From a virus: a DNA stretch of 64,000 nucleotides. The stretch spans positions 1-64,000 of IMG/VR virus record IMGVR_UViG_3300049793_000366; one strand, 5' to 3'. The notes under the pieces were generated by a model, which was not told the origin of the DNA, searched no databases, and was given only the letters and a program-made list of their open reading frames with translations. Both the position numbers and the translations under genes were made by a program. This document shows positions 1,679 to 61,143 of the stretch, one piece after another. Each line of letters begins with the position of its first letter. The first letter of the stretch is position 1.

Positions 1679-2035
1679 GTGATTCTGTTTAAGTGGTTAA
1701 ATGAGCAATATATACAACTTAGCTCTTATTTGCGTACTATACAAAAAGCCAAAACCAGTAGAATAGAAGTTGAAAGTGATGTCAAAGGTATCATTGATTT
1801 CTTTCACTACAATGGTGTATATAGCATAAGAGACTACCATGAGTTGAATGATTTAGAAAAATCATTCATAAAATCGATGCTTCGTACCAGAAGCAGACAG
1901 CATCAAATCGAAGTCGAGTTTCATTTAGAATTAGAACTTGCCAATAAGCAACAGTTGAAGCGTATGTTAAAAATGTACGAAGAAGAAGAGAATTATGAAA
2001 AGTGTTCTGTGATTAAGAAGAAGATTGATTCGTAA
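1679..2035 (+). CDS. Small charged helical protein, GTG start
   Basis: A 118-residue, highly charged, mainly helical protein of unknown function. Its C-terminus (EEEENYEKCSVIKKKID) resembles the UVR-type helical hairpin (a repeat of the form Y-x-x-A-A-x-x-R-D-x-I), here with Cys in place of Ala. A similar EEYEKCSALLKEK motif sits in the protein at 18961-19203. The GTG start is chosen because the TTAATATATA motif lies exactly 4 bases upstream, as at many ATG starts here. The last 23 bases overlap the end of the convergent gene at 2013-2480. Confidence 0.65.
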   Translation: MILFKWLNEQYIQLSSYLRTIQKAKTSRIEVESDVKGIIDFFHYNGVYSIRDYHELNDLEKSFIKSMLRTRSRQHQIEVEFHLELELANKQQLKRMLKMYEEEENYEKCSVIKKKIDS

Positions 2036-2480
2036 CATACTTTATGTTATAGAATATTTGAATTGGACATTTGTATTTCTTAAAATCTTTAAATTGAAGC
2101 ATATCAAAGTCAACACAATGATAGGGACCGAAATCATCTTCTCCTTTTAAATCTTGTTCATCGCAAAATTTGAAATCATATTTTAATGTAAACCTTACAA
2201 ACTCCTTTAATAAATAATCTCTTATAAAGAGTTTAGCCTCTTCGTAACTGGAATTATTATACATCGCTGTAATAGTTTCAATATCTGAATCATTCGGAAC
2301 AATTTCAGCACTTATTGTAAATACGTTACTTGGTTCATCAACTACATCGTAGTATACCTCTAATTCATTAACTTCATACGAACACTCTTCGAAATATAGA
2401 GATACCCATTCTTTAACTTTCTGTGTTGATAGAAATTCAGAATTCTCCGTAAGAAGCTTAAATGACTTTAAATATTTCAT
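2013..2480 (-). CDS. Unknown protein with capsid-targeting-like N-terminus
   Basis: A 155-residue protein whose first residues, MKYLKSFKLLTE, match the N-terminal pattern shared by many proteins in this window. LLTE followed by Asn-Ser resembles a T4 gp21-type cleavage site (hydrophobic-x-Glu). The rest is acidic and alternates helices and strands with no recognised motif. The start is firm: the minus-strand motif TTAATATATA lies 4 bases upstream. I infer a head-packaged protein; function unknown. Confidence 0.75.
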   Translation of the reverse strand: MKYLKSFKLLTENSEFLSTQKVKEWVSLYFEECSYEVNELEVYYDVVDEPSNVFTISAEIVPNDSDIETITAMYNNSSYEEAKLFIRDYLLKEFVRFTLKYDFKFCDEQDLKGEDDFGPYHCVDFDMLQFKDFKKYKCPIQIFYNIKYVTNQSSS

Positions 2481-2484
2481 AAAT

Positions 2485-2494
2485 TATATATTAA
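2485..2494 (-). promoter_or_regulatory. Late-type promoter motif TTAATATATA
   Basis: Minus-strand copy ending 4 bases before the ATG at 2480. If it works like the T4 late promoter, the transcript would start at or next to the start codon. Confidence 0.6.
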
Positions 2495-2516
2495 AAATAA
2501 CCATACAAGATTTGGA

Positions 2517-2528
2517 TTATAATATATA
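2517..2528 (+). promoter_or_regulatory. Late-type promoter motif variant TTATAATATATA
   Basis: Four bases (CCTT) separate the motif from the ATG at 2533, which decides the start of the methyltransferase in favour of that ATG over the upstream in-frame TTG at 2512. Confidence 0.5.
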
Positions 2529-2532
2529 CCTT

Positions 2533-3252
2533 ATGATTGAATTGAATAAGGTTTACCACGACGATTGTATAAATATTCTAAAGCAAATCAGCGATAAGTC
2601 AGTAGACTTAATACTTACAGACCCTCCGTATATAATTTCACGCAAGAGCAATTTCATTCACGCAACTGAGAATATAGATCCAGTAGTGGTTGGTAAGTTC
2701 TACAAACATTCAATCGATTTTGGTGATTGGGATAAAGAACAACTTAACATTGATGAATTGTTTGCCGAATTCAGTAGAATATTAAGACCCGGTGGAACAG
2801 TGATATGGTTCTATGATGCTTGGAAGATTGGTGAGATAAAGGATATAGCGGAAGGCTTAGACTTTAAGCAACCAAGAATATGTCAATGGGTTAAGAATAA
2901 TCCAGTACCAGTAAACTCTAAACACAATTACCTATCAAATGCTATTGAGTTCTTTGTAACATTTGTAAAGAGAGGTAAGCCAACATTTAATTCGCAATAT
3001 GATAATGGAATTTATAATTACCCAATCTATCACGCGAAAGATAGATTTCACCCAACTCAAAAGCCAATAGAATTATTTAAGGAATTGATTATAAAGCATA
3101 GTGATGAAAATATGATTGTACTTGATCCATTTGCGGGTTCTTCCACGACAGCCATTGCGGCTATGGAAACAAACAGACGATGGATTATGATTGAAAAAAA
3201 TATTGAATATTATGAGAAATCCATCGAAAGACTTAAGCTCGTATATCAGTAG
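2533..3252 (+). CDS. DNA methyltransferase, N4/N6 beta class
   Basis: S-adenosylmethionine-dependent DNA amino-methyltransferase of 239 residues. The catalytic motif IV DPPY (30-33) precedes the cofactor-binding motif I DPFAGSS (198-204), the permuted order of the beta class, and HPTQKP (173-178) is the conserved lead-in to the second half. No target-recognition insertion of normal size is evident, so specificity cannot be read. It is one of three DNA methyltransferases in the window and has no restriction partner, which fits a phage gene that modifies its own DNA or blocks host restriction. The 4-base spacing from a late-type motif supports this ATG. Confidence 0.88.
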   Translation: MIELNKVYHDDCINILKQISDKSVDLILTDPPYIISRKSNFIHATENIDPVVVGKFYKHSIDFGDWDKEQLNIDELFAEFSRILRPGGTVIWFYDAWKIGEIKDIAEGLDFKQPRICQWVKNNPVPVNSKHNYLSNAIEFFVTFVKRGKPTFNSQYDNGIYNYPIYHAKDRFHPTQKPIELFKELIIKHSDENMIVLDPFAGSSTTAIAAMETNRRWIMIEKNIEYYEKSIERLKLVYQ

Positions 3253-3412
3253 TATCGTAGATACAATAACAAAGGATGACCCTGTAAGAAAAAGGTGGTT
3301 TCCGGAATATCTCAAGATGAAGTATGTGGATAGATTATCTGCTGAAACATTAGAGGGATTCTGTTTCAGAATGGAGAGAGACAGAAAAATAGATTACATT
3401 ATTAATATATAA
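3212..3412 (+). CDS. Small hypothetical protein overlapping the methyltransferase
   Basis: A 66-residue reading frame that starts inside the 3' end of the methyltransferase (41-base overlap) and continues to just before the next gene. The part beyond the overlap, with PVRKRWFPEYLKMKYVDRL and an acidic/basic C-terminal helix, looks like real protein. The exact start is uncertain; a further upstream ATG in frame lies at 3191. No family recognised. Confidence 0.5.
   Translation: MRNPSKDLSSYISSIVDTITKDDPVRKRWFPEYLKMKYVDRLSAETLEGFCFRMERDRKIDYIINI
3402..3411 (+). promoter_or_regulatory. Late-type promoter motif TTAATATATA
   Basis: Plus-strand copy ending 4 bases before the ATG at 3416; it overlaps the stop codon of the preceding small gene. 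Confidence 0.6.
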
Positions 3413-3415: not shown

Positions 3416-4072
3416 ATGAAACATATTAGAACATTTGAAGAGTTAAACTTCGATACATACTACAATGCTGGTAAGAAGCTAAAAGACGAAGCTAAAGTAC
3501 CGGGCGGTAAAAGCTGGGAAAGAGATAAAACAAACACGCATTATAAAAGAGGTGCTGAAATACATAAATGGGCTTATACTAAAGAGTATAAAGATTTAGG
3601 TATTTTGGATGTTTATAGCAACAAAGGTGGTGGTAAAGCTGAGGCTATGATATCATCTTTACATATAGACCCTCTTAGTTTTTTTGAGAGTTTTATAGCT
3701 GAGGATGACCGTCCAGAGACAGGGTATATCACTATGTTTACTCAGGTATATAATATGAGTAGTGATGACGTTGAAGATTTATATTTTATAAACCTTCCAC
3801 TTAGATGGACTAACGATAAATTTCATGTAGATGGTGAACCAAACATAGACACAGATATGATAACATTGAAAGATAGACAATCAGCTATGAAGTTACGTAA
3901 GGCATTGAGTCTTGGGAATTGGATATCTGAGTTATCAAGCGATCCTAAGCTTGATAACTACGATGAGGATCTTGATATTAAGCACCAGTTTATGTTATAC
4001 TCTACACCAGATGAGTATGAAAAAATGATTAATGCATTCAAGAATATATCAGTAAATAAACTATATAAATAA
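3416..4072 (+). CDS. Unknown protein with capsid-targeting-like N-terminus
   Basis: A 218-residue protein beginning MKHIRTFEELNF, the shared capsid-targeting-like pattern. The body has a basic Gly/Lys-rich stretch (about 27-48), a GGGK segment near residue 72, and an acidic C-terminal half rich in Asp, Tyr and aromatic residues. No catalytic motif is recognised. Two bases separate it from the next gene, so the pair is co-transcribed. Confidence 0.75.
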   Translation: MKHIRTFEELNFDTYYNAGKKLKDEAKVPGGKSWERDKTNTHYKRGAEIHKWAYTKEYKDLGILDVYSNKGGGKAEAMISSLHIDPLSFFESFIAEDDRPETGYITMFTQVYNMSSDDVEDLYFINLPLRWTNDKFHVDGEPNIDTDMITLKDRQSAMKLRKALSLGNWISELSSDPKLDNYDEDLDIKHQFMLYSTPDEYEKMINAFKNISVNKLYK

Positions 4073-5297: not shown

Positions 5298-5774
5298 ATG
5301 AGTATGAACAGAAATAGGGAATATACTAAGGAATTAGCCCAGCGTATTAAGCTTCACTATGAGCATTCCGACTTCAGTAAAAAGTTTATAGAAACTTTAC
5401 TTGAGGATAGAAAATACTGCACTGATAGAATACTCAAAATAGCCAGCGAAGAGTTTAATCGAACACTTTCACATAAAGATGCAATCACGGTTCTACAATA
5501 TGTTCAATTAAATATACATAGACTTGCGGAAACAAGTGGTGTATATGCTGATAGTAGAACAATCGATGCTGTTATGTTTGGTGAACAAGAAGAAGAGATA
5601 AATTACACAAAATTAAACTTCGTACCATCTGCTAAAATCCTATATGATGAAGGATTTTATACAGAAAGCATGAAGCGTTATGGTAATAGTGGGTATATCG
5701 GTTATAACTTAGATTACATCGGTGTTAAAGTAGACCTAAGTGAAGATATTTTAGATTCAGCTCTTACTTATTAA
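5298..5774 (+). CDS. Hypothetical protein
   Basis: A 158-residue protein of unknown function, mainly helical in the first 90 residues with abundant charged residues, then a Tyr-rich segment (YGNSGYIGYNLDYIG near the C-terminus). It is driven by its own host-type promoter, which suggests early expression. Its last 11 bases overlap the convergent IMPDH-like gene. Confidence 0.72.
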   Translation: MSMNRNREYTKELAQRIKLHYEHSDFSKKFIETLLEDRKYCTDRILKIASEEFNRTLSHKDAITVLQYVQLNIHRLAETSGVYADSRTIDAVMFGEQEEEINYTKLNFVPSAKILYDEGFYTESMKRYGNSGYIGYNLDYIGVKVDLSEDILDSALTY

Positions 5775-6792
5775 ACCTGTTATAGGCTTGTGTAGTAATC
5801 TGAACGAAGTTTGCATTGCCTTTGAACTCTTCAATCGTTCTGAATCCACAATAGCTCATGTTAGATTTTAAATAATCAGTGAAGTTTTCAACCCAAGAGT
5901 TAAGTGAGTATTCTACTCTATTATATTTAGTGATTCCCTCAGCAGTTTTCAAATCGTCTTTCTTCCAAGTCTTTTGAACTTCTTTAGTTGACATTCCTCT
6001 GTAATACTTATAAATATCTTCACCTAAAGAAAAGCGATTTAAAGCGTCTTCTGAGCCAATTTTGATATATTGCTCACCTACTTTAGTATAACTGTCTGAA
6101 ACGCTCTCTAAACACTTATTAAGTATACCACCAATCATAACTGCATCGGCACCTAAGCCAATTGCTTTTATTATATCAGAGAAGTTTCTAAATCCACCAT
6201 CAGCTATAATCTTAGTAGGATTAGTAAACTCTTTACTGATTACACCACATTCGAATATCAGTGATGCCATAGGGTAGTGAATTGCTACATTAGCTGACGT
6301 TGTGCAAGCAGAACCACCACCAATACCACAGCGCACCCAATCAACACCAATTTTACAAAATTCTCTGTATGTTTCTGGGTTAGCGATATTACCAACCATT
6401 AACTCAACATCGTATTCTTTTTTAATTCGAGAAGCTATATCAAATAACTTCTTCATATGCCCATTCGCGATATCAATAAGAACTTTTTTGGGTAATAATT
6501 TACCCGCTTCTACAATTTCGATTATCTCGTCTAAACCATATGCGTAAAATAAATGTGTATTGCTACCTGTGAAGTTGATACCTCTCGGTAGACAAATATT
6601 TATACCCTTTTCATAAAATTGATTAGCATTATCAGAGCCAATAACAGTGTCCATTGGTGCTGTGAAGAGTGGTAACATATTGATACCATTCTCTACTTTA
6701 AGTGTTGGGCTTACTTCTTTGCGACTATCTATATCACTAATTGTTGCCGGAACAATAGTAATATCGTTCCAATCGAATTTAACTTGACTCAT
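5764..6792 (-). CDS. IMP dehydrogenase / GMP reductase family enzyme
   Basis: A 342-residue TIM-barrel purine enzyme acting on IMP, XMP or GMP. The catalytic loop GIGGGSACTT (156-165) places the nucleophilic Cys at 163. The phosphate-binding IADGGFRNFSDI and GADAVMIGGIL strands follow, and YYRGMST matches the conserved YRGMGS flap region. There is no CBS-domain insertion, as in GMP reductases and minimal IMP dehydrogenases, so the direction of the reaction cannot be settled from sequence. In the infected cell it would tune the guanine nucleotide pool for phage DNA synthesis. It lies last in a minus-strand series that begins with the glutamate-synthase-like gene. Confidence 0.88.
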   Translation of the reverse strand: MSQVKFDWNDITIVPATISDIDSRKEVSPTLKVENGINMLPLFTAPMDTVIGSDNANQFYEKGINICLPRGINFTGSNTHLFYAYGLDEIIEIVEAGKLLPKKVLIDIANGHMKKLFDIASRIKKEYDVELMVGNIANPETYREFCKIGVDWVRCGIGGGSACTTSANVAIHYPMASLIFECGVISKEFTNPTKIIADGGFRNFSDIIKAIGLGADAVMIGGILNKCLESVSDSYTKVGEQYIKIGSEDALNRFSLGEDIYKYYRGMSTKEVQKTWKKDDLKTAEGITKYNRVEYSLNSWVENFTDYLKSNMSYCGFRTIEEFKGNANFVQITTQAYNRFNK

Positions 6793-28126: not shown

Positions 28127-28399
28127 ATGAAAATGAGCAAACAAAGACTAGCAACAATATGTCTAATGTTGGGGATGTTTTTCAACCCCTTTGGCTTCGA
28201 TGCAGTACAGGTGATGTTAATAAATTCAACTGGCAGTTATTGGAAAGCCAATTTAGTATTGTATTGCCTTGCGGGATTCTGTTTTGGGCTGTACTTCTTA
28301 TTTTCGGGTAATAATCCATTCACATCAATCAAGAATATTCTTTCAGATTTGTGGTTAAAGAGAAAAAGAAAATCTAAACTAAATAGTCTATTTAAGTGA
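28127..28399 (+). CDS. Small two-helix membrane protein
   Basis: A 90-residue protein (or 88 from the second Met) with two hydrophobic helices at about 9-30 and 42-60, followed by a polar loop and a strongly basic tail (KRKRKSKLNSLFK). The MSKQRLATICLMLGMFFNPF start is a style I associate with small phage membrane proteins. Function unknown; a holin-like role cannot be excluded. Another frame starting at 28084 overlaps it but looks less like protein. Confidence 0.6.
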   Translation: MKMSKQRLATICLMLGMFFNPFGFDAVQVMLINSTGSYWKANLVLYCLAGFCFGLYFLFSGNNPFTSIKNILSDLWLKRKRKSKLNSLFK

Positions 28400-28702
28400 G
28401 CTTAGAATTTCATCGAATGTAGCTGGTGTTAAATCTTCAATCTGTGATATAACTGGCTCACACTGTCTTTCTCTACATAATTGTAAATACTTAGCAACTA
28501 ATTCTTTTACTTCATCATTGTCGTAAAACTCACCAGTTAATTCAGAAAATAAAAATGACGTATCACCCTTATCTATTGTTGGTGGTATATTATCATATCC
28601 GTAGTTAACACCACCTAATCCAAATGCTGGTGCGCCTGAGCCACCAGAGAATCCATGTGTTAATGATGTTTCGAATACTTCAAATGATTTTAAATACTTC
28701 AT
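28388..28702 (-). CDS. Small protein with capsid-targeting-like N-terminus
   Basis: A 104-residue protein starting MKYLKSFEVFETS, a close match to the shared N-terminal pattern, followed by a Gly-rich segment (THGFSGGSGAPAFGLGG) and an acidic C-terminal domain with CRERQCEP. Start fixed by TTAATATATA 4 bases upstream. It is probably a small head-packaged protein. It overlaps the end of the convergent membrane protein gene by 12 bases. Confidence 0.75.
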   Translation of the reverse strand: MKYLKSFEVFETSLTHGFSGGSGAPAFGLGGVNYGYDNIPPTIDKGDTSFLFSELTGEFYDNDEVKELVAKYLQLCRERQCEPVISQIEDLTPATFDEILSSLK

Positions 28703-28706: not shown

Positions 28707-28716
28707 TATATATTAA
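28707..28716 (-). promoter_or_regulatory. Late-type promoter motif TTAATATATA
   Basis: Minus-strand copy ending 4 bases before the ATG at 28702. Confidence 0.6.
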
Positions 28717-28745
28717 ACAAACAATTTAATTTAACTATAACATCT

Positions 28746-29396
28746 ATGTTCAGTTACTATGGCTCAAAGAGCAAAATTGTGGATCACTACCCAAGTCCTA
28801 AACACGATACAATCGTTGAGCCGTTTGCTGGCTCAGCCAGATATGCGTTAAAATATTGGGAAAAAGATGTAGTTCTCATAGAGAAATTCGACAAGGTATT
28901 TAAGATTTGGAAATATTTACAGAGCGCATCAACAGATGATATCTTAAAACTTCCGGTATTAGAAGTTGGTCAAACATTAAATGACTTTCAACTACTTTGT
29001 GATGAAGAAAGATGGTTAATCGGATATCACCTTAGAAGAGGTTGTGCGAGACCATCATTATCAAGTGGTGATAGATGCTCTTGGGATAAAGATAAAGTGA
29101 GAATCGCGAATGATTTACATAAGATAAAACATTGGGATATTAAATTCGGTGATTTCTTCGAGCAAGATATTATACCAAATGCTACCTATTTCATTGATCC
29201 ACCATATACTGTTCAGAAACATAAATATAATCATCATAAGATTGATTATGACAGACTAAAAGGAGTTATTGATACGATAGATAGCCAAGTTATTGTATGT
29301 GGTAATTCAGATGATAAATGGCTTGAATTTGTACCATTAAAGAAGATGTTTGGTAATAAGAAGAGCCATATAGAATGTATATGGACTAAGAACTAG
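28746..29396 (+). CDS. DNA adenine methyltransferase, D12 (Dam-like) class
   Basis: A 216-residue N6-adenine methyltransferase of the alpha (D12) class. YYGSKSK (4-10) is the family's N-terminal FGGK equivalent, EPFAGSARYA (25-34) is the cofactor site and DPPY (151-154) the catalytic motif. The target-recognition region between them is short, so it is smaller than Dam at 58250-59197. Its last 4 bases overlap the convergent gene at 29393. Confidence 0.87.
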   Translation: MFSYYGSKSKIVDHYPSPKHDTIVEPFAGSARYALKYWEKDVVLIEKFDKVFKIWKYLQSASTDDILKLPVLEVGQTLNDFQLLCDEERWLIGYHLRRGCARPSLSSGDRCSWDKDKVRIANDLHKIKHWDIKFGDFFEQDIIPNATYFIDPPYTVQKHKYNHHKIDYDRLKGVIDTIDSQVIVCGNSDDKWLEFVPLKKMFGNKKSHIECIWTKN

Positions 29397-30115
29397 CTTC
29401 GATAAATTCCTAATTTACTGAATATTTCTTTTCGAGTATAAGTTATACCGTTATATGTTAGTGTAAAGTCTTTTGGGTCTTCTAATTTAAGTTTCTCACC
29501 ATCTATAAGAACAGTTAACCAAGGATTATCACCAGCCATTTTCCATTTTAATAATGGTGCTTCAATATTAACATCTTTGTATATAACATCAGATTTTTTA
29601 ATATTGTCAACGAATTCCTTTCCAAAGTCTATCATCCTTTGTCCACCAGAATCTAAGAACATTTGCTTGTAATCAATAGCATTGTCGTTCTTTAGCTTCT
29701 TTAGTTCATCCGATTTCTGTTTTACTAATTCATCTGAGTCTTCTTTTGTAATAAGTTTGTAGAATTCTACTAAATCCCATTTATCAGTTTCTTTATCATA
29801 GATACCCTTTGCCCAAGCATCTTTTATACCTTCTTGTTTTGTTTTACAATGAAATCTTCCTTGTGCAAAGAAATTCCAATGGTCAGATATACGAATAGTG
29901 CCATCATGTGTTAAATTCCAACCTTTCTTCTTACTGTAAAATGAATTAGAGATAGGACTTTTGAATACGAATTCCCAATCTAATATTTCTCGCGTAGCTT
30001 CAACAGGGAAATTATTAAAAAATCCACTACTAACCCATTTCATCAATAAATGCTTAGGAATAGGTTCACCATTTTTGAATTTGGCTTCTGTTATAAACTC
30101 TAAATATTTTAGCAT
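29393..30115 (-). CDS. Unknown protein with T4-like capsid-targeting N-terminus
   Basis: A 240-residue protein starting MLKYLEFITEAKF, the closest match in this window to the T4 internal-protein leader (MKTYQEFIAEA), with ITE as a predicted gp21-type cleavage site before Ala. The body is Lys/Asp/Trp-rich with a FHCKTK segment and a charged coiled region (about 130-150). No known domain seen. Its ATG shares a base with the stop of the upstream gene. Confidence 0.75.
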   Translation of the reverse strand: MLKYLEFITEAKFKNGEPIPKHLLMKWVSSGFFNNFPVEATREILDWEFVFKSPISNSFYSKKKGWNLTHDGTIRISDHWNFFAQGRFHCKTKQEGIKDAWAKGIYDKETDKWDLVEFYKLITKEDSDELVKQKSDELKKLKNDNAIDYKQMFLDSGGQRMIDFGKEFVDNIKKSDVIYKDVNIEAPLLKWKMAGDNPWLTVLIDGEKLKLEDPKDFTLTYNGITYTRKEIFSKLGIYRS

Positions 30116-43530: not shown

Positions 43531-43545
43531 TGTTAGCCGTTACAT

Positions 43546-43555
43546 TTAATATATA
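43546..43555 (+). promoter_or_regulatory. Late-type promoter motif TTAATATATA
   Basis: Plus-strand copy ending 5 bases before the ATG at 43561; it opens the 43.6-49.8 kb gene series. Confidence 0.6.
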
Positions 43556-43560: not shown

Positions 43561-43950
43561 ATGAGATTCTTAAAGAAATTTAAAGAGGTATTTAAAAAAC
43601 CAGAAGATAAGAAGGAGACAAATGAAATTTTGCTCAAAAAGCTAGAATCCGAGGTAGATGTTTACTTTCAAGGATTGATTGACGAGAGTGAATTATGGGA
43701 AAAGGAAGTTGAATATAGTTTCATAACTGGTATACAAACATTACAAATTGCTTTCAGATTCAATGAAGAAGATAAAGCTGTTATGAGAAATAATATGGTT
43801 TCTCTAAAAAAGGAAGCAAAAAGATGTTGTTCAGTACTTATGAGTGACCATCCATATATAAAATTTGAAATATATGCTGGGCCAGATATATCAATAGCTT
43901 TTGATGAGCTACAAATACACATAACAATAGAGAATGAAAGGACTAATTAA
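43561..43950 (+). CDS. Small protein with capsid-targeting-like N-terminus
   Basis: A 129-residue protein starting MRFLKKFKEVFKKPEDKKE, a basic version of the shared leader. The rest is an alpha/beta fold ending in an ILQIHITIE-type edge strand (FDELQIHITIENE). It is first of three consecutive genes of similar size that overlap each other by 17 bases. Function unknown. Confidence 0.7.
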   Translation: MRFLKKFKEVFKKPEDKKETNEILLKKLESEVDVYFQGLIDESELWEKEVEYSFITGIQTLQIAFRFNEEDKAVMRNNMVSLKKEAKRCCSVLMSDHPYIKFEIYAGPDISIAFDELQIHITIENERTN

Positions 43951-44377
43951 GAAATTCAATGACTATATAAAGTCTATAAATCCGGAAGAAAAAGAACCTA
44001 TTGACCCAAGAACTTTAAAATTGGAAGACATCAATAGACATTTTCAACTACTATGTGATACAGCATCAAATATTAGATTTAGTGAAAATGATTCATTCAG
44101 CATACCAACTCTACAAGGGCATCTTGGATATCCATGTATTGCTGTTGTGTATGAATTCACAGGGGAAGAAGTAGATGAGTTCGATTCGTGTGCTAAATAT
44201 GCAAATAGAGCATCAAATATATTTGAAAAGGAAACAGAATTTACAGTATATGTAGAAGAAGGAACTATAAATGATTATGTATATGGTTTGGATAATAATC
44301 CAGTAGAAAAGGTTATTGGTAAAACCATTATAATTAAAATCTTTAATAAAAAAATACCAAATGTACGTGCGAGATAG
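43934..44377 (+). CDS. Small protein with capsid-targeting-like N-terminus
   Basis: A 147-residue protein starting MKGLIKKFNDYIKSINPEEK. The leader pattern K-K-F-N-x-Y-I is a looser match. The body ends with a beta strand (GKTIIIKIF), as in the neighbouring genes. Overlaps of 17 bases at both ends suggest coupled translation. Function unknown. Confidence 0.68.
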   Translation: MKGLIKKFNDYIKSINPEEKEPIDPRTLKLEDINRHFQLLCDTASNIRFSENDSFSIPTLQGHLGYPCIAVVYEFTGEEVDEFDSCAKYANRASNIFEKETEFTVYVEEGTINDYVYGLDNNPVEKVIGKTIIIKIFNKKIPNVRAR

Positions 44378-44798: not shown

Positions 44799-46202
44799 AT
44801 GAAAAAGTGGATTAAATCTTTCGAATCATTTAAGCAAACATATGAGGCATTTTCATCGAGAGATAAAGAAGCCGCAATTGTTCAGGTATTATCCTACATC
44901 AAGAATAATACAGAGATTGACTTCTACCCATACGGTGAACATTTCAACATAGAAAAAGGTCCCAGAAGCTTTCAAGGTGAACTATATTTATCAATAATGT
45001 CTGAGAAAGCTATACGCTTTAACTGGGCTATTGATTCAACTCGCTCAGAGATACATTCTATTGATTTATGGAGTAACTTTAGCTTTGATTCTAATCCTGA
45101 TTATACATTAGAATTGAATGGTAATTCAATTATACAAGTACTTAAACAAGTATTCACATTCTACATTAGTCCGGAAGATTCTTTAGCGAAAGCAAAATAC
45201 GAACAAGAATTAGAATTACAAGAAGGTAAGTTAAATGAAGAAATTCTTAGAAAAGCATTAGATGATGAAAAGGCAAGATTGTCTAAAATGTCAAATGCTG
45301 AAGCTATTGAAAAGCAGAAGAAACTTATTAGTACCATCGAAGCACATTTGGCTGACCCTGAGTTTACAACAACTTATACAATTGAAGAAGCTGAGGTAGA
45401 AGCTAAGAAGGATCCTAAAATGGATGTATTCAAAACAATTGAATTAAATACAATTCAGGTTGCTCGTGGTAGGTCAAATTCATTGATTATAACAGGACAA
45501 GCCGGTATCGGTAAGACTAATACTGTAACTGAGACTTTGAGTAGTATTGGTTTAAGACAAGGTACTGCTTACTTTAAAGCAACTGGTGATATTTCAACAC
45601 CAGGATTATATGAGATTTTATTCAAATATCGTAAACGTTTAATATTATTCGATGATTGTGATGCGGTTTTTAATGACCCTGATTCAGTGAATATGTTAAA
45701 GGGTGCTTTAGATACTTATGAAAAAAGAACCGTAACAAATCTTAAAAAGGGTTCATCATACTATGATGCCGAAGGAAAAGATGATATGGAGTTAGATGAA
45801 ATATATGACAAAGACGGTAAGCTACCAAAAAGCTTTATCTTTCAGGGTCAAATTATTTTCGTGTCTAATTTACCAGAAAATAAATTTGATGCTGCTATCA
45901 TTTCACGTTCATTACACGTAGATGTGACTTTATCAAGAGAAGAAGTAATTAAACGAATAAGACAAATTATGGTTAGAATTTCACCAGAAGTTGAACCAGT
46001 TAAAAGAGAAGAAGCTTTCGCATATTTATTAGAGATAACAGCTAATTATCCTACTAAATTTGATTTGAACATCAGAACATTAATACACACTATTAATCTT
46101 CGTTCAAGTCCGGAAAATGAAGAAATCATCACAGTGGCAGATGTTTCGATGCCTGCATGGAGATGGTTGGTTAAACAATACCTCATTAAGGATAAAAAAT
46201 AA
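44799..46202 (+). CDS. AAA+ ATPase with capsid-targeting-like N-terminus
   Basis: A 467-residue protein. It begins MKKWIKSFESFKQTYEAF, the shared leader. A domain of unknown fold (about 20-125) and a charged coiled coil (about 128-185) precede a P-loop core: Walker A GQAGIGKT (233-240), Walker B LILFDDCD (281-288), a sensor-1-like IIFVSNLP and an Arg in ISRSLHVDV. It is therefore an intact AAA+ type ATPase, unusual for a protein that seems destined for the head. It might remodel host proteins or DNA on entry. A second P-loop protein with the same leader is at 59285-59797. Confidence 0.82.
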   Translation: MKKWIKSFESFKQTYEAFSSRDKEAAIVQVLSYIKNNTEIDFYPYGEHFNIEKGPRSFQGELYLSIMSEKAIRFNWAIDSTRSEIHSIDLWSNFSFDSNPDYTLELNGNSIIQVLKQVFTFYISPEDSLAKAKYEQELELQEGKLNEEILRKALDDEKARLSKMSNAEAIEKQKKLISTIEAHLADPEFTTTYTIEEAEVEAKKDPKMDVFKTIELNTIQVARGRSNSLIITGQAGIGKTNTVTETLSSIGLRQGTAYFKATGDISTPGLYEILFKYRKRLILFDDCDAVFNDPDSVNMLKGALDTYEKRTVTNLKKGSSYYDAEGKDDMELDEIYDKDGKLPKSFIFQGQIIFVSNLPENKFDAAIISRSLHVDVTLSREEVIKRIRQIMVRISPEVEPVKREEAFAYLLEITANYPTKFDLNIRTLIHTINLRSSPENEEIITVADVSMPAWRWLVKQYLIKDKK

Positions 46203-48113: not shown

Positions 48114-49772
48114 ATGAGAAAATTACTTTTATATGAAGCTTTCACAGCTAAGTCTATTGTTAAAACAATAGGATTTTTGAAAAAGAATGTCGGAGACGAA
48201 GGTACTCAAGAATTCATATCAGCACTAAAAGATATGAGAACTGCGTTTGATATATCAATCGATAAGATTGATGACCAATACATGGATTACATGGGTAAGA
48301 AAGATGCTTTAGCTATATCCGGAAAAACAGATGACCCAGAGGATAAAGAAGGTATTTTTTGTTTAAAGTTTTGGTTCTCAACTGAACTTGGATTTTTGGG
48401 ATATACTGGAACTGGTAATACTGAATTTAAATTTAATGATCCAGAACTTATTATTAGATTAAAACAAAATGGTATTCCAACACCATCTATATTAGAAAGC
48501 ATTGGTATAAAGAGTGGTGTTGTTACGCCATTGGGTGATGATGACGATATGTTTCAGGATTTAAAAACCGGAGATACAATAGTTGGTTACTTCGATGAAG
48601 ATAGAAAAGATAGTAGATTCTCTAAAGCTACTATATTTGTTGATAAAAGACATGATGATAGAATATTTGTATATGCTATACAAGATGTAACAGATGGTAA
48701 TACACCTGAGAATGAGGGTTGGGAGCAATACGGTAGCTATGGTCACGTCATATACACTTATAATAGAGGTAAAAGAGATGATTGTAGAGATATTTGTTTA
48801 TACACTAATGATGATAGTCCTTTAAAATTAGGAAATGAAATATTAGGTGACGATGCTAATAATCCACTTAAGCATAACCTACCATTTGATAAATATAAAC
48901 ACATAACAGATTGGAATGTAGAAAGCCATAGAAGTATGAGTACTGCTAAATTAAAAAAGGCTGACTTCGCTATTATACTTTATGTAAATGACTTGAAGAA
49001 GTCTGATTTAGTAAAGCCAAGCACGGTAATGAGTTATAGAGAAAAGTCAAAAGAAGGTGCATCAAGACTATTAACAAATGATGAGTATAGAGCAATTAAT
49101 TTACAGAGATATGTTGAGCATATTGCTAAGTCTATTGGTATATCAGCAAAAGATATTAATTTTAAAAATTTAGAAAAATTACCAAAAAGTTTATTAGCTG
49201 GTAAATTTGCTTTAGTAGCATTAAAAGGAACTGACGTAATACGTAAGTTAAATTCATTTATTGATTCTACTAATAACTTATTCAAAACGTATAAAGCATA
49301 CCAAGAAAGTGGTGGAGAAGTAGATTTGGATTATTACTTTGATGATTTCAAAAGACTTTACTTTAGTGTTATGAGAGATAATAATCATCATAGATATGAT
49401 GTCAATTACAACGAATGTATTAGAGTATTAGATGAGTCGGGTCATCGTAATACCGAAAGAGTAAAAGGATTATTAGCTAAGATAATTAGCATTGGTGAAA
49501 TGATACAACAATATATTGGTAGCGAACCAATAACAACACCAACACATCTTAAGATGCTTAAATTTAAGTTGGATAACATCAGAGATGTATCAACAACAGA
49601 TGAGTTTGGTATTGATGGTAGATTAGACTATTGGATAGACCATTTACATTATGCTGATTCAGATAGTCCAGTTTCGGATGCTGAACGCTTATTAAATCAC
49701 AGTGATGAGCAACTACAAACATATGAAGAGAATTTAGATAATTTATCTACATACATTCGTAGTTTAACTTAA
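48114..49772 (+). CDS. Large hypothetical protein with leader-like N-terminus
   Basis: A 552-residue protein starting MRKLLLYEAFTAKSIVK, a diverged leader-like N-terminus. The body is acidic (several Asp-rich stretches, e.g. PLGDDDDMF near 140) with a helical C-terminal third. A His/Arg/Asp stretch (RDNNHHRYDVNYNE) lies near residue 420. No domain recognised. It ends with a 4-base overlap with the convergent SbcD-like gene. Confidence 0.7.
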   Translation: MRKLLLYEAFTAKSIVKTIGFLKKNVGDEGTQEFISALKDMRTAFDISIDKIDDQYMDYMGKKDALAISGKTDDPEDKEGIFCLKFWFSTELGFLGYTGTGNTEFKFNDPELIIRLKQNGIPTPSILESIGIKSGVVTPLGDDDDMFQDLKTGDTIVGYFDEDRKDSRFSKATIFVDKRHDDRIFVYAIQDVTDGNTPENEGWEQYGSYGHVIYTYNRGKRDDCRDICLYTNDDSPLKLGNEILGDDANNPLKHNLPFDKYKHITDWNVESHRSMSTAKLKKADFAIILYVNDLKKSDLVKPSTVMSYREKSKEGASRLLTNDEYRAINLQRYVEHIAKSIGISAKDINFKNLEKLPKSLLAGKFALVALKGTDVIRKLNSFIDSTNNLFKTYKAYQESGGEVDLDYYFDDFKRLYFSVMRDNNHHRYDVNYNECIRVLDESGHRNTERVKGLLAKIISIGEMIQQYIGSEPITTPTHLKMLKFKLDNIRDVSTTDEFGIDGRLDYWIDHLHYADSDSPVSDAERLLNHSDEQLQTYEENLDNLSTYIRSLT

Positions 49773-54042: not shown

Positions 54043-54471
54043 ATGAAGCATATAAAAACATTTGAACAATATTCACCAGCAACCGAAGTGAATGAAGAAC
54101 TATTTGGTAAATTATTACAAGGTGGTAAAGACTTCATCATCGATGGTAAATCGTTAGCAGAACTTAAAACTAAATATGCTAATGTAGTTAAAGATGGTCA
54201 GGTTATTTCTAAAGCTAAAGAACAACCACTTGTTACTATTGAAGAAGGTAAACCATTAAGAGGTAACCCACCTACGATGGCTCGTATTAAAGAACTTAAA
54301 GCAAAATATAACATGGATGATGCACAAGCTTTAGAAGCGACATTAAAGATTTACGATTGGAATGGTAACATTTTAATGGATGGTGAGAAGTCAACATTTG
54401 ACACTAACACTAAGAAGTTCACAGTTATTCAAGCTAAAAGCACAAGAGGAACAGGTTTTAACGTAAGTTAA
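54043..54471 (+). CDS. Unknown protein with capsid-targeting-like N-terminus
   Basis: A 142-residue protein starting MKHIKTFEQYSPATEVNEE. VNE before Glu-Leu-Phe is a possible cleavage site. The rest is Lys-rich with Gly-Pro turns and a C-terminal beta region. No domain recognised. It ends with a 4-base overlap with the convergent gene at 54468. Confidence 0.75.
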   Translation: MKHIKTFEQYSPATEVNEELFGKLLQGGKDFIIDGKSLAELKTKYANVVKDGQVISKAKEQPLVTIEEGKPLRGNPPTMARIKELKAKYNMDDAQALEATLKIYDWNGNILMDGEKSTFDTNTKKFTVIQAKSTRGTGFNVS

Positions 54472-54947
54472 ACAATATAAAACTTTATTTGAAAATTACA
54501 GAAGCCGACCATACGATATCCGTACTGGTCGTTTTCTGTATATTGGTTAAACCCCTTCCATTCAATGATGTTATTCTTATATTCAGCGGGGTTATATGAA
54601 TTTTGTATTGTATCATTTATTTTAAACTCATACTGAGTCTTAAATCCGTCTTTTTCTAAAAACTTTCTTCTTCTATCTAATAATGTTTTGATAGTATCGA
54701 ATTCTTTTTTAGCATCATCTTCTGGTATTCTTCTTTTACAAACAATTAATAAATATCCTGCTCCTTTTTCTGGAATCAACTGATATCCTTCTTCTGCTAA
54801 TGGGAAAAATAATTCATGTTCTATTTGCTTTACGTCAGTCATGTTTCTAATCATGCGTCTTAAAGCATTGTGCAATTCGTCAAGAACACCACCTATTTTA
54901 TTGTAGTACTTATCATCAAATGATTCGAATGTTTCTAAATTTCTCAT
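54468..54947 (-). CDS. Unknown protein with capsid-targeting-like N-terminus
   Basis: A 159-residue protein starting MRNLETFESFDDKYYNK. A helical segment with an RRMIRN core is followed by a strand (GAGYLLIVCKRRI) and a charged helix (about 90-110). It is last of three overlapping minus-strand leader-bearing genes (54468-56075). Function unknown. Confidence 0.73.
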   Translation of the reverse strand: MRNLETFESFDDKYYNKIGGVLDELHNALRRMIRNMTDVKQIEHELFFPLAEEGYQLIPEKGAGYLLIVCKRRIPEDDAKKEFDTIKTLLDRRRKFLEKDGFKTQYEFKINDTIQNSYNPAEYKNNIIEWKGFNQYTENDQYGYRMVGFCNFQIKFYIV

Positions 54948-55696
54948 TCTACTAATTTTGGCATTGTATCTATTCGAGATTCTGCTAAATCCAATAGTTT
55001 TTCTTTATATGTGTTTAATGTTTGTAAATTACTTTCCGTTAACTCTTTTCTATTTAACATTGGTTCTAAATCCGGGTAATGTTTGATTATACCAGACTTT
55101 GTATAAGAATCTGGTTCATTACCATCGATTAGAGAAAAGAATTGACCAAACTGAAAAGCCATTACTTTATAGATATCTTTAATAGACTCTTTCTTTCCTG
55201 GAAAGTCAGTCATAGTTACGAAATCAATCTGTCTTATTACAGGAAGTTTTAATCTTAAATCGCCGCGCAATGCTGGTTTAACTACTGTTCTAAGATGAGA
55301 ACGAGAATAGAATGATAAGATACCTCTACACACTCTTAATAACTTTTGATTAGTGTCTCTTTGTACTACTGATTTTATTTGGTTATCAAAATATTGTTTG
55401 TGATTATCATAAGTATAATACAAAGCATTATTTACCTCATCAGCAGTGCCTTTGAATACTTTAACAATATGACCATTCTCAAGAACAGCTAAATTGCAGT
55501 TTAAAACCTTATCAGATAAAAGATTAGATAATTCAGCATTATAATGTTTACATATGTTATGAGCCGCATCAATATTTTGAGGAATATCATCAACAAATAT
55601 CATTACGTCATAGTCTTGACTATTCTCAGATCCAAAGATTTGAAAAACATAGTCTATATTTTCAGCCATTTCATTGAACTTTTTAAGATATTTCAT
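54944..55696 (-). CDS. Nucleotidyltransferase-like protein with capsid-targeting-like N-terminus
   Basis: A 250-residue protein. The leader MKYLKKFNEMAE is followed closely by IFGSENSQDYDVMIFVDD (about 20-37), which matches the polymerase-beta-type nucleotidyltransferase core (Gly-Ser, then Asp-x-Asp-type acids on the next strand). Typical acids sit at the DYD pair; a third acid is not certain. A cluster of Arg/Lys (RSHLRTVVKPALRGDLRLKL, about 132-151) could bind nucleic acid. If packaged and active it could modify a host molecule soon after injection, loosely like T4 Alt. It overlaps both neighbours by 4-14 bases. Confidence 0.65.
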   Translation of the reverse strand: MKYLKKFNEMAENIDYVFQIFGSENSQDYDVMIFVDDIPQNIDAAHNICKHYNAELSNLLSDKVLNCNLAVLENGHIVKVFKGTADEVNNALYYTYDNHKQYFDNQIKSVVQRDTNQKLLRVCRGILSFYSRSHLRTVVKPALRGDLRLKLPVIRQIDFVTMTDFPGKKESIKDIYKVMAFQFGQFFSLIDGNEPDSYTKSGIIKHYPDLEPMLNRKELTESNLQTLNTYKEKLLDLAESRIDTMPKLVE

Positions 55697-56075
55697 TAAT
55701 GAGTAGTTTTATGTCAATTGTTTTAAATCTAAATAAAATTGATGTATAAGGACCCGTTAAATATTCAGAATTACCCTCTGTTAATTCTAACTCATATTTC
55801 TTAGCAAATTTAGTCAATTTATTTCTAATATCCTCAATTAATGGATCATTTATTATAAATTTAAAGTCATAGCAAATGTTACCGTATGAATCTTTAGCTA
55901 CTCTATCTTCATCTAAACCAGGATAGGGTTTTTTATATATAAATTGTACTTGTTCATCAGCGTCATATTCCTCAAACTCAATGTATAAAAGCCTTTCAAG
56001 TGAACCTTTAGCTACTGAAAAATCTGAAAATGTTACTTGATTTTCATTTATAAATTCGGAGTAGTTCTTCTTCAT
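55683..56075 (-). CDS. Unknown protein with T4-like capsid-targeting N-terminus
   Basis: A 130-residue protein starting MKKNYSEFINENQ, very like T4's leader, with INE as a predicted cleavage site. The body is acidic with a helix-strand C-terminus (LTKFAKKYELELTEGNSE). Start fixed by a late-type motif variant 4 bases upstream. First of three coupled genes. Confidence 0.75.
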   Translation of the reverse strand: MKKNYSEFINENQVTFSDFSVAKGSLERLLYIEFEEYDADEQVQFIYKKPYPGLDEDRVAKDSYGNICYDFKFIINDPLIEDIRNKLTKFAKKYELELTEGNSEYLTGPYTSILFRFKTIDIKLLINEIS

Positions 56076-56862: not shown

Positions 56863-57459
56863 ATGAAACATTTAAAGTCTTTTCAGATGTTTGAAAACGA
56901 AGGGCAAGTAGCCCCAGCAGAAGCTACAAAAGCACCTGCTGAAATGCCAGTTGACAGAGCGGCTGTTGAAGCTGTTGTTAAAAAGCAATCACCAGAGCAA
57001 TTACAACAATTTGTTAATGAGTTAGCACAGAAACTTGGTTTAAGTGTCGAACAACTTAAAGACGAAGAGTTGGTTAAGTCTAAATTGGCTGAATTGACAA
57101 AGAATGAATCTTTTGAAGTTGATGAGACAAATGAAGGTTTAAAAGATATGTTTGCTTCTTTAAAAGCTAAAGCTGCTAAAATACTTACTTGGGCTGGTTT
57201 AGGTACAGTGGCGGGTGGTCTTATTAATTTGGCAATTGATGCTGGATTTAACGAACACGCTATAAACGCGGCTGATTATACAGGTGCTACATTACACATG
57301 AGTAGTATGGCAATAGCTTCAATTATAGCTTTGGTAGCTGGTACTGCAATGACTGTTGTTGGTATGAAGAATCTACCAAAAACTGCGACAGCGGGTGCTG
57401 AGTTATCCGATGCTCAAAAAGCTCAAATAGCAAGAAGAAAAGCAAGATTTGGTAGATAA
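56863..57459 (+). CDS. Membrane-active protein with capsid-targeting-like N-terminus
   Basis: A 198-residue protein. The leader MKHLKSFQMFENEG is complete from the ATG at 56863; an upstream in-frame ATG at 56839 would put eight extra residues before it, so 56863 is preferred. An Ala/Pro/Glu-rich region is followed by a coiled segment (about 40-80) and two hydrophobic helices (about 112-130 and 148-168), then a basic tail ending ARRKARFGR. It could act on membranes at entry. It overlaps the next start by one base. Confidence 0.72.
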   Translation: MKHLKSFQMFENEGQVAPAEATKAPAEMPVDRAAVEAVVKKQSPEQLQQFVNELAQKLGLSVEQLKDEELVKSKLAELTKNESFEVDETNEGLKDMFASLKAKAAKILTWAGLGTVAGGLINLAIDAGFNEHAINAADYTGATLHMSSMAIASIIALVAGTAMTVVGMKNLPKTATAGAELSDAQKAQIARRKARFGR

Positions 57460-57677
57460 TGAAACACTTACAATCATTTAACGAACATAACGCTACACCT
57501 GCAATCTACCACAGTAGAATTACAAAGGGTAAGACCAAAGTCTCTTATGATGATAAAAAGGGTGTTATAATTGACACTGATGTAGACTCAGAAAAAATAC
57601 TAAACGTACACATCAAATATGAAGATGGTACTGATGGATGGGAAGTCGCTGATGATACTAAGATGAAATACATTTAA
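57459..57677 (+). CDS. Small protein with capsid-targeting-like N-terminus
   Basis: A 72-residue protein starting MKHLQSFNEHNATPAI, then a small basic/beta domain (KGKTKVSYDDKKGVIIDTD) and an acidic C-terminus. It is coupled to the preceding gene by an overlapping TAATG and closed by a terminator. Function unknown. Confidence 0.7.
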   Translation: MKHLQSFNEHNATPAIYHSRITKGKTKVSYDDKKGVIIDTDVDSEKILNVHIKYEDGTDGWEVADDTKMKYI

Positions 57678-59284: not shown

Positions 59285-59797
59285 ATGAAATACATTAAAA
59301 TGTTTGAAAATTACGATGAGCGATTTTCTAAAATAGAAAGAGTTTTGCGTAGTTTAAACTTTAGAAAGAATAGAGATCCTAAGCCTATACATATCGTTGG
59401 TGGTGGTAATGGTAGTGGTAAAATGCACTCAATTAAAACTGTATTAGACCAGATGGACGAGGAATATATTATAATAAATACAAACGAAGCTACACCAACA
59501 TCATTCTATATGACCTTATATGAGTATAGTGATAGTGATACTATCGTTGTTATTGATGAGATGTGTAATAATTCAAGCACTAATAATCAAGCAAGAATAA
59601 ACAAAACCATTGCTCAATTGTGTAAGGGTGAAATGATAACACATCCATATCCCAATGCTCCAAATCCACCTAATACTATATTACAATTTGAATTTAAAGG
59701 AAGAGTAATATTATCAACAGCAGATTTGACAAATACCAGAGATATTAGTGGACTATACGATAAAAATTTAAACACTATATTTTTGGGATTTAGTTAA
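59285..59797 (+). CDS. P-loop ATPase-like protein with capsid-targeting-like N-terminus
   Basis: A 170-residue protein starting MKYIKMFENYDERF. The P-loop HIVGGGNGSGKMHSI (about 36-50) has Met where Walker A normally has Ser/Thr, which may weaken nucleotide hydrolysis. A Walker-B-like TIVVIDEM (86-93) and a RVILSTADL sensor-1-like strand follow. It is a minimal P-loop fold without the C-terminal lid, so it may be a regulator or bind to the larger leader-bearing ATPase at 44799-46202. Confidence 0.7.
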   Translation: MKYIKMFENYDERFSKIERVLRSLNFRKNRDPKPIHIVGGGNGSGKMHSIKTVLDQMDEEYIIINTNEATPTSFYMTLYEYSDSDTIVVIDEMCNNSSTNNQARINKTIAQLCKGEMITHPYPNAPNPPNTILQFEFKGRVILSTADLTNTRDISGLYDKNLNTIFLGFS

Positions 59798-59799
59798 AG

Positions 59800-59830
59800 T
59801 AAAAAATCCAGTCATTGACTGGATTTCTGG
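59800..59830. terminator. Intrinsic terminator
   Basis: AAATCCAGTC (59804-59813) pairs with GACTGGATTT (59817-59826) around a three-base loop. It closes the plus-strand gene and could also end the minus-strand tmRNA transcript, though the T runs are short. Confidence 0.65.
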
Positions 59831-59957
59831 TCTCATTTATCACCGTAACTCGTAAGCAAGAAGACCAATTCTCTTACTCACCACCTAATGAACAACAGAT
59901 ATTAATCTGAGCCCCATCTTTCCGATGGCATGATAAAGTGTATCTCTCGATACAGGG
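59831..59957 (-). ncRNA. Putative structured RNA downstream of the tmRNA
   Basis: No protein gene lies here. On the minus strand, directly 3' of the tmRNA, there are several short perfect hairpins: GTATC/GATAC with a GAGA loop (59940-59953), CCATC/GATGG (59914-59928), CAGAT/ATCTG (59896-59909), and a longer arm with outer TCATT/AATGA (59833-59891) enclosing GTAAG/CTTAC (59852-59877). It does not fold as a tRNA and matches no ribozyme I can recall. It may be a processing or stability element of the tmRNA precursor, or a separate RNA. Confidence 0.4.
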
Positions 59958-60348
59958 TGGAGAAGACGGGAATCGAACCCGTGTCCAATGATATCAGTGA
60001 ACTACTTTCTACAAGTTTATTTTAGTTTTCTAACTAAACCAAATAATCAATTTTTTTAACGACTAAAGAGATAATATGTCGCCGATTCAGTTATATACCA
60101 CTTGTGTCGAGAACTGTGGTTCCGAAGATTTTGTCGATTTTAAGCAATCTCAAGTTCTTCAACTTGAGTAGCAGTAGTCTTAGACTTTGCTAATACACTT
60201 AAAATATCGGATAACGATCCGACTTCGTTTGTAATTACGTTGCCGTTTACAGATTTTATCTACTAATTTATTAATCGCACGTTTTATTAGACAAAGCGAT
60301 ACTTGCTTATAACTCTCATCTCATCACCGTCGAAGCCTTAACTTCCCC
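59958..60348 (-). ncRNA. ssrA: Transfer-messenger RNA (tmRNA)
   Basis: The 5' end GGGGAAGTTAAGGCTTCGAC (from 60348) and the 3' T-arm ACGGGTTCGATTCCCGT followed by CTTCTCC form the tRNA-like half. GGGGAAG pairs with CTTCTCC over 7 bases with one G-U, followed by the discriminator A at 59958. CCA is not fully encoded (ACCC). TGTAGAAA near the 3' end, conserved in tmRNAs, is present. The tag-coding region starts after GTAAAC near 60244. The RNA is about 391 bases. Genes like this rescue stalled ribosomes with SmpB. A late-type motif variant lies 20 bases upstream. Confidence 0.9.
60140..60244 (-). other. Tag-coding region of the tmRNA, unusually long with non-LAA end
   Basis: Reading from the GGC after GTAAAC (60244), the frame runs 34 codons to TAA at 60140-60142. 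It begins GNVITNEVGS, has SDILSVLAKSK in the middle and ends QVEELEIA. Usual bacterial tags are about 10 residues ending in LAA. The resume codon is inferred by analogy with the known position. Two perfect hairpins lie inside: TCGGAT/ATCCGA (60207-60222) and CTCAAGTT/AACTTGAG (60149-60168). Confidence 0.6.
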
Positions 60349-60368
60349 GTTTACTGATTAAAGTATGA

Positions 60369-60378
60369 TATATATTAC
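60369..60378 (-). promoter_or_regulatory. Late-type motif variant GTAATATATA upstream of tmRNA
   Basis: Minus-strand copy ending 20 bases before the mature tmRNA 5' end. That would leave a short 5' leader for RNase P to remove. Confidence 0.4.
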
Positions 60379-60411
60379 AATGGAAAAGGAAAGTTTTTCT
60401 ATTTTGAATAT

Positions 60412-61143
60412 TTATTTTCTTAATTTATCTTGTTCATCCATTATTCTCAACATTTCTGGTTCATTACCAGCTTGAATAGCCTTTCTCAACTCTTTATTTA
60501 AGTCATCATATCTTTTATTATTAGCCCACTTTTGTAATTCACCTTCATCACTACCTAAGCCATATCCATACCTATATACTTGAATAACTAATAATAAAAG
60601 CTCTGGATATTCTTCATCTTCATGGTCTTCTATAAACTTTTTATAAATATTTCTATCATTTATTGATTGTTGTATATCTATACACGTAGCTAATACCGAT
60701 CCAGATTTTATCTCTGGCCCTTTATAGTTTAACTTCTTATCATCTATTTTATCAAAATTAGCCATCTTCATCATATCCGACATTAGCTCTTGAAAATCCA
60801 CTCTGAAATCTGAATTTGGATTTAATGGTTTATGATAACCAATACTATACCCAACATTAATTATGTATGCTACTAATTGCTGAGTGGATGATTTTGGTGT
60901 ATTAAATATCTCAGTATATGTAATATCACCGAAGTGTTCATCAATAATACTTTTTATTTTATTATCATCAAGATAATCTAATTGATAGTTTGTTGTTATT
61001 AGTTTAGTTATAACATTCACAAATTCTACTAAATGTTCCTTAGCATATTCAACGTCAGCTTGTGTACTAGCATTCATAGCCGCTATTTGTTTATCAAGCT
61101 CATCTCTATCAAAGCTTTCGTTAAATTTCTTAAGATATTTCAT
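60412..61143 (-). CDS. Unknown protein with capsid-targeting-like N-terminus
   Basis: A 243-residue protein starting MKYLKKFNESFDRDELD from the ATG at 61143. An in-frame ATG at 61167 would add eight residues and break both the leader pattern and the 5-base spacing from the late-type motif. The body is acidic and helical, with a Tyr/Gly stretch (VYRYGYGLGSDEGE). No domain recognised. Confidence 0.75.
   Translation of the reverse strand: MKYLKKFNESFDRDELDKQIAAMNASTQADVEYAKEHLVEFVNVITKLITTNYQLDYLDDNKIKSIIDEHFGDITYTEIFNTPKSSTQQLVAYIINVGYSIGYHKPLNPNSDFRVDFQELMSDMMKMANFDKIDDKKLNYKGPEIKSGSVLATCIDIQQSINDRNIYKKFIEDHEDEEYPELLLLVIQVYRYGYGLGSDEGELQKWANNKRYDDLNKELRKAIQAGNEPEMLRIMDEQDKLRK

Follow-up and report, generated by a model that had tools for sequence, protein, structure and literature searches.

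The internal proteins IPI to IPIII of bacteriophage T4 form a diverse anti-host set with only a capsid-targeting sequence (CTS) in common (PMC3012670). This N-terminal leader, MKTYQEFIAE/A (the slash, here and below, marks a known or predicted cut), is cut by gp21 and can direct almost any protein to the head interior (PMC7697877); IPIII is required on some hosts (PMC9391042). T4 gp21 and its giant-phage relatives cut behind Glu, and many head proteins of phiKZ and SPN3US, including ejection proteins, are trimmed in this way (PMC5694885). Packaging and early action on the host are also predicted for diverse enzymes, the MuF, portal, or polyvalent head-packaged effectors (PMC9503650). Here, we describe a short N-terminal leader on otherwise unrelated proteins encoded in bases 1 to 64000 (the window) of a 507,910-bp IMG/VR virus record (508 kb; IMGVR_UViG_3300049793_000366). 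The original prediction, made from the window alone, read this N terminus as a T4-like capsid-targeting leader on head-packaged proteins. Our sequence analysis of the whole record and of related phages supports that reading: the shared N terminus is very probably a CTS of the T4 internal-protein kind, used genome-wide.

The genome is that of a Mahaphage-like huge phage. Over its C-terminal part, the tail sheath shares 72% identity with those of LR756502 (642 kb) and LR745206 (635 kb), 64% with that of LR756504 (636 kb), and 52% with that of LR756501 (735 kb). These sizes match those of the huge phages of Al-Shayeb et al., whose largest genomes fall in the Mahaphage clade, with Bacteroidetes as predicted hosts (PMC7162821). 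After retrieval of the remainder of the record, a simple caller based on codon usage yielded 503 genes; its crudeness makes all gene counts approximate. LR756501 and LR756500 were covered in part, and PTm1 over 50 kb.

The leader, MK[HY][LI]KxFxxF, is a short stretch of basic and aromatic character. A 10-column matrix built from 12 window N termini scored 48 of the 442 genes outside the window at >=6 bits, versus a mean of 1.45 and a maximum of 5 over 100 runs with shuffled N termini; no internal Met site among 2096 reached this score. An anchored model, refined for each genome and with expected false counts taken from shuffles, placed leaders on 79 of the 503 genes (16%; 3.2 expected), on 177 of 738 in LR756502 (8.8 expected), on 45 of 312 in LR756501 (1.9 expected), and on 30 of 281 in LR756500 (1.4 expected). 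The family of about 16 members first proposed is thus real, and its size was underestimated genome-wide (~79 genes, 3 expected to be false). Two further window matches, at 19206 and 49769, were rejected as false positives, the former having an orthologue without a leader and the latter starting inside a gene. A 34-kb viral contig, IMG/VR 3300031566_000207, contains a dense cluster of 11 exact matches to a strict leader pattern in 15 kb.

The same family emerged when no motif was specified. All N termini were compared within each genome, pairs with related bodies were removed, and the threshold was the top score among three shuffled sets. Under these conditions the single surviving pair in T4 was IPII/IPIII, both with a known capsid-targeting sequence. 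In the window's genome, 64 N-terminal pairs exceeded every shuffle and linked 41 genes, which bears out the claim that the bodies of these proteins differ. The relatives yielded groups of 30 and 22 (LR756502) and 19 (LR756500), and the cultured phage PAU a group of 19; KVP40 produced a single pair of a different kind, and none emerged from PTm1 (50 kb). Since this test returns only known capsid-targeted proteins in T4, the same property marks a large class in these phages. Taken together, these results suggest that the same short, probably removable tag is borne by dozens to well over 100 unrelated proteins, roughly 7 to 24% of the genes. A leader family of the T4/Mahaphage kind was not found in Lak or in the 50 kb of PTm1, and recoded stops in Lak may hide genes; Lak has two groups of four proteins each with other shared starts.

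Profiles of the N termini recovered dozens more members in the whole genome and in related phages and also picked out T4 IPII and IPIII. When the profile was built only from N termini of LR756500 and IMG/VR relatives, T4 gp61.1, IPIII, and IPII ranked first to third among 199 T4 genes (15.4, 15.2, and 15.2 bits; next gene, 9.9). Leaders of other clades read MKYIKSYENFIFE/N, MKTVKTFEQFINE/A, and MKNLQTFDEFINE/S, and the LR756500 type is MKYIKSYEEFLNE; in LR756500, 15 of 17 matches to the pattern [YF]x[EDN][YF]phi-x-E (phi, hydrophobic) lie at an N terminus. The MKHLKKFxxF form of the window's genome is less T4-like than the leaders of its relatives. T4 gp61.1, a hypothetical protein (MKTFKEFIKEDMVAG; T4 positions 18966 to 19130), has a score similar to those of the known internal proteins, with a predicted cut after E10, and could be an unrecognized capsid-targeted internal protein.

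A comparable family is present in PAU, in which 17 of 226 genes start with MKT[LI][ST]KLYE or a close variant (0.04 expected), 16 of them with phi-x-E at residue 9. Twelve of the 17 are located at 100.6 to 121.1 kb, around the portal (108296), protease (111408; profile match, 1.8e-42), and capsid (114915) genes. N-terminal sequencing data indicate that the mature PAU capsid protein comprises 520 of 585 residues (PMC5646251); the phi-x-E nearest to the reported mature end is LME/N at residue 64, off by one residue.

The cleavage signature of T4, hydrophobic-x-Glu, accompanies the leader. Its Glu falls at residues 8 to 14 in 75% of the leaders versus 20% of other genes (p ~1e-20; residues 8 and 9 lie partly inside the columns by which the leaders were selected), and the residue that follows is Ser or Asn more often than expected. 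At residue 13 of LR756500, which is outside the selecting columns, the signature occurs in 57% versus 4%. The hydrophobic-x-Glu pattern noted originally is therefore real, with the window genes at 43934, 44799, and 54468 lacking a site near the leader. All 55 aligned gp23-type capsid proteins, from the window's genome and 54 IMG/VR relatives, bear the signature at a single position where the N-terminal arm ends (by eye); the sites are SINE/N in the window's genome and NLNE/S or ELYE/N elsewhere, compared with SFLTE/A in T4 gp23. The capsid-protein open reading frame (ORF) called in LR756502 (227371 to 228094) is without the first ~215 residues, possibly through a frameshift, an insertion, or another start.

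A gp21-type prohead protease, expected elsewhere in the genome by the original prediction, was found beyond the window at record 93393 to 95666. This 757-residue protein is encoded among T4-type head genes, adjoining those for the gp20 portal (91592; Portal_T4, 9e-59) and the gp23 capsid protein (95750; Gp23, 4.6e-27). It matches the PHROG head maturation protease (6e-30) and Pfam S77 (1.3e-3, below the curated cutoff); the S77 search of the genome found nothing, and the match came from the scan of the protein itself. T4 gp21 is its only significant profile match in the PDB (5jbl, 6.9e-6) and also the sole PDB match of its predicted structure (6.8e-7; TM score, 0.67 on the target; mean pLDDT, 59, with ~80 in the protease part); the protease domain spans about residues 1 to 170. 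Long helices and 14-residue repeats (YSEYLAENLDKNI) are predicted in its middle, and the repeat region contains eleven L/I-A-E candidate sites 14 residues apart. From its sequence, the protein is a gp21-type protease fused to a putative coiled scaffold. Nine of the 50 high-scoring internal proteome windows for the other-clade leader profile fall in this protein, a hint that the leaders may dock on the scaffold. The related idea that the leader is a copy of the repeat was retained as a hint only, because the repeats copy one another and have drifted in other clades. Scaffold-type repeats also occur on small proteins outside the protease-scaffold gene, in L024 (11117 to 11314, minus strand) and LR756501 (619760 to 620383) (YSEYIAKELDKSI; YAEYLAEQIDKSI).

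The leader genes also share an upstream motif, TTTAATATATA, which occurs with at most one mismatch in the 70 bp upstream of 39 of 79 leader genes (49%) versus 59 of 424 others (14%; p = 3e-11) and starts 15 to 17 nucleotides (nt) before the ATG in 26 of the 39. Exact copies number 60 genome-wide, against 4 expected, and 50 of these lie no more than 120 nt ahead of a same-strand start. The motif also precedes sheath, terminase, endolysin-like, and fiber-like genes; it precedes none of 24 genes for metabolism, replication, and translation enzymes (named mostly by eye). This distribution points to a late promoter. Searched for as one pattern, motif plus leader was found 24 times in the window's genome, 36 times in LR756502, and 26 times in LR745206 (reversed control, 0); it was not found in LR756501, LR756500, or PAU, though leaders persist there.

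These features fit a scheme in which the cargo genes would be transcribed late in infection from the promoter type shared with virion genes, and the leader would dock each product on the core of the prohead, where the coiled scaffold fused to the protease may be the docking site. Once the shell is closed, the gp21-type protease would cut behind the Glu of hydrophobic-x-Glu, freeing the cargo in the head, and would also fragment the scaffold and trim the capsid protein. By analogy with T4, the cargo would then enter a new host with the DNA and act at once. We favor this CTS reading because of the held-out enrichment, the genome counts, the motif-free result for T4, and the ranking of T4 genes by the other-clade profile; because of the cleavage signature in leaders and 55 capsid proteins, the protease-scaffold, and the upstream motif common to virion genes; and because of the PAU family among head genes, the occurrence of CoaE with and without the leader (see below), and the T4 precedent. 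Several points weigh against it. A quarter of the leaders are without a clear phi-x-E site nearby, half of the leader genes are without their own upstream motif, and late timing is deduced from a motif. Scaffold docking draws on one tandem-repeat family that has drifted in other clades, the gene calls are crude, and the cleavage test overlaps in part with leader selection. Our literature search found no virion data for these phages and no virion mass spectrometry for PAU.

The leader could instead be an address for another site in the infected cell, such as a membrane, the replication compartment, or another phage-built body, with the Glu pattern incidental. Its basic and aromatic composition is like that of membrane-binding helices, and some of the cargo (RNA ligase, CoaE, and CoaD, for example) would already benefit the ongoing infection. 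This address is unlikely given that the leader resembles the CTS of T4, that leaders and the capsid protein have a cleavage signature in common, that the upstream motif is common to virion genes and absent from enzymes, and that the PAU leader genes sit among head genes.

The nature of the cargo bears on a second alternative, in which the leader-bearing proteins are virion components, either structural or core (shell, core, or tail), that the protease trims and that remain with the particle instead of being injected. T4 scaffold and capsid proteins also have phi-x-E sites, and large densities lie under the vertices inside jumbo phage capsids, including that of PAU (PMC5646251). However, leader genes are short and poorly conserved among relatives, with orthologues in LR756502 for 21 of 79 versus 210 of 424 other genes, and the recognizable structural genes (sheath, portal, capsid, and terminase) are without the leader. 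Several leader proteins are, moreover, enzymes. Only ~1 in 10 has a Pfam family; these families include a tRNA nucleotidyltransferase (118224), a P-loop kinase-like protein (402049), Nudix, GNAT, SET, methyltransferases, lysozyme, and ankyrin repeats. A structural role is even less likely than another cellular address. Those LR756502 orthologues that exist usually retain the leader (14 according to the model, with several more judged by eye). An Rnl1-type RNA ligase (375103, MKWLKERDKFSMNES) falls below the model threshold, and its LR756502 orthologue, which starts with MKKLHRYNSFIKES, scores. In LR756501, CoaE and a cytidylyltransferase-like (CoaD-like) enzyme have leader-like starts, whereas their counterparts in the window's genome begin with the enzyme itself. 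A Pfam scan of 77 leader proteins revealed no MuF or portal fusion; one weak PHROG portal match (1.8e-4) was recorded.

That the conserved start reflects a nucleic acid constraint on first codons lying beside a promoter is highly improbable. In many genes TTTAATATATA ends ~4 nt before the ATG, so that the mRNAs themselves may be nearly leaderless, and motif and leader recur together. However, synonymous codon variation within the leader is similar to that elsewhere in the genome, indicating that the protein and not the DNA is conserved; the genes at 205513, 97610, and 243011 have the motif at the same distance without the leader; and leaders persist in the three genomes in which the combined pattern was not found. 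Descent from one ancient paralogous family with bodies diverged past recognition, as the clustering of leader genes (30 adjacent pairs versus 12 expected) might suggest, is scarcely credible, since unrelated folds and known enzyme families (for which it is contradicted) are represented among the bodies, related-body pairs had already been removed in the motif-free test, and one and the same enzyme can have or lack the leader.

Read as a CTS system, the set resembles T4 IPI to IPIII in its short N-terminal leader on otherwise unrelated proteins, its hydrophobic-x-Glu at the leader end (though not in every member), its gp21-type protease and gp20/gp23-type head, and the fast turnover of its cargo genes. 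It differs in number (few in T4 versus ~79 genes in the window's genome and as many as 177 in one relative), in leader wording that varies by lineage, in cargo that includes enzymes, in the upstream motif common to leader and virion genes, and in the union of protease and scaffold in one protein. The phiKZ and SPN3US propeptides are mostly long, with several exceeding 100 residues, and are cut at A-x-E or S-x-E, whereas the leader described here has ~10 residues, a hydrophobic P3, and enriched sites at residues 8 to 14 (A or S at P3 was not scored separately). For MuF, portal, and polyvalent effectors, packaging is predicted from fusion or gene neighborhood, and here it is predicted from a short N-terminal tag. 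The principle is that of T4; the scale, lineage-specific leader forms, common upstream signal, and enzyme cargo were not found described in the literature, nor was a report of such a genome-wide tag.

A broader proposal, which we consider evenly balanced, is that up to a quarter of the genes of huge Bacteroidota phages encode a virion-borne protein kit with a lineage-specific N-terminal tag, including RNA and tRNA repair enzymes (the Rnl1-type RNA ligase, the P-loop kinase-like protein, and the tRNA nucleotidyltransferase) that would act before any phage gene expression. The injected proteome of an uncultured phage would then be readable from its genome. Most huge-phage genes are of no known function; if the tag is what it appears to be, ~80 to 170 per genome would be assigned to the head and to the opening minutes of the next infection. 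They would form a ready list of candidate counterdefense and takeover proteins, and the tag would serve as a rule by which others could be found in further lineages.

Leader genes and upstream motifs of the window are listed in Table 1.

Table 1. Predicted leader proteins and late-promoter-like motifs in the window
Feature	Position	Strand	Remarks
Leader protein MKYLKSFKLLTE/N	2013..2480	-	Score 15.1; phi-x-E at 12; promoter motif just upstream
Late-promoter-like motif TTTAATATATA, before 2013-2480	2485..2495	-	
Late-promoter-like motif, before 3416	3401..3411	+	
Leader protein MKHIRTFEE/L	3416..4072	+	Score 20.8
Leader protein MKYLKSFEVFE/T	28388..28702	-	Score 19.9
Late-promoter-like motif, before 28388-28702	28707..28717	-	
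Leader protein, T4-type form MLKYLEFITE/A	29393..30115	-	Motif match; outside anchor range of anchored model
Late-promoter-like motif, before 43561	43545..43555	+	
Leader protein MRFLKKFKE/V	43561..43950	+	Score 12.8
Leader protein MKGLIKKFNDY, phi-x-E not near leader	43934..44377	+	Score 14.5
Leader protein MKKWIKSFESF, P-loop/AAA-like ATPase cargo	44799..46202	+	Score 14.6; leader-bearing orthologue in LR756502
Leader protein MRKLLLYE/AF	48114..49772	+	Score 12.5; leader kept in LR756502 orthologue
Leader protein MKHIKTFEQY	54043..54471	+	Score 20.1; leader kept in LR756502
Leader protein MRNLETFESF, phi-x-E not near leader	54468..54947	-	Score 13.7
Leader protein MKYLKKFNE/MAE/N	54944..55696	-	Score 19.3
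Leader protein, T4-type form MKKNYSEFINE/N (MKKNYSEFINEN)	55683..56075	-	Motif match
Leader protein MKHLKSFQMFE/N	56863..57459	+	Score 20.8; start 8 codons inside ORF
Leader protein MKHLQSFNE/H	57459..57677	+	Score 22.9
Leader protein MKYIKMFE/NY, P-loop-like cargo	59285..59797	+	Score 17.8; weak PHROG 1250 match, 1.1e-4
Leader protein MKYLKKFNE/S	60412..61143	-	Score 20.0
Late-promoter-like motif, before 60412-61143	61149..61159	-	

Fifteen of the 16 genes originally listed share the leader, 13 by the anchored model and 2 (29393 and 55683) by the T4-type motif; the gene at 30115 to 30597 was not confirmed. Between the two weaker cases, 48114 was retained (its LR756502 orthologue starts with MKNKHILLFEAF) and 46376 was not. 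The starts assumed for 56863 and 60412 to 61143, each 8 codons inside the longest ORF, were confirmed, the latter being backed by the promoter-like motif just before 61143. Among the cargo assignments, the AAA+ ATPase (44799) gained some support (PHROG 1250, 1.8e-37; AAA_16, 2.7e-4), the second P-loop protein (59285) has its weak match to the same PHROG, and the guesses of a nucleotidyltransferase (54944) and a membrane-active protein (56863) found no family support.

A basic, aromatic N-terminal extension has been reported for the ribosomal protein S21 of huge phages (PMC7162821). It was rejected as an instance of the leader: the copies in the window's genome and LR756502 begin with MIIIKIEESGSLEKALKK and MLIIKVDEKETIEKALKR, without the leader, and in LR756501 and LR756504 the S21 domain fills nearly all of a frame of 66 to 67 residues. 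The S21 gene of the phage (record 205513) also has the TTTAATATATA motif, and a late-type motif precedes the gene for a fiber-like protein with many SHSEG/ASG repeats (window 35764 to 37749, minus strand).

The window also contains a transfer-messenger RNA (tmRNA) gene (59956 to 60348, minus strand; tag, AKSKTTATQVEELEIA), and an SmpB-like protein is seemingly encoded at record 177782 to 178219 of the same genome (by eye). Other genes named by eye in the window are those for glutamyl-tRNA synthetase (13984 to 15510, minus strand), isoleucyl-tRNA synthetase (51775 to 54003, plus strand), an IMP dehydrogenase-like protein (5764 to 6792, minus strand), and a glutamate synthase-like protein (7428 to 8918, minus strand).

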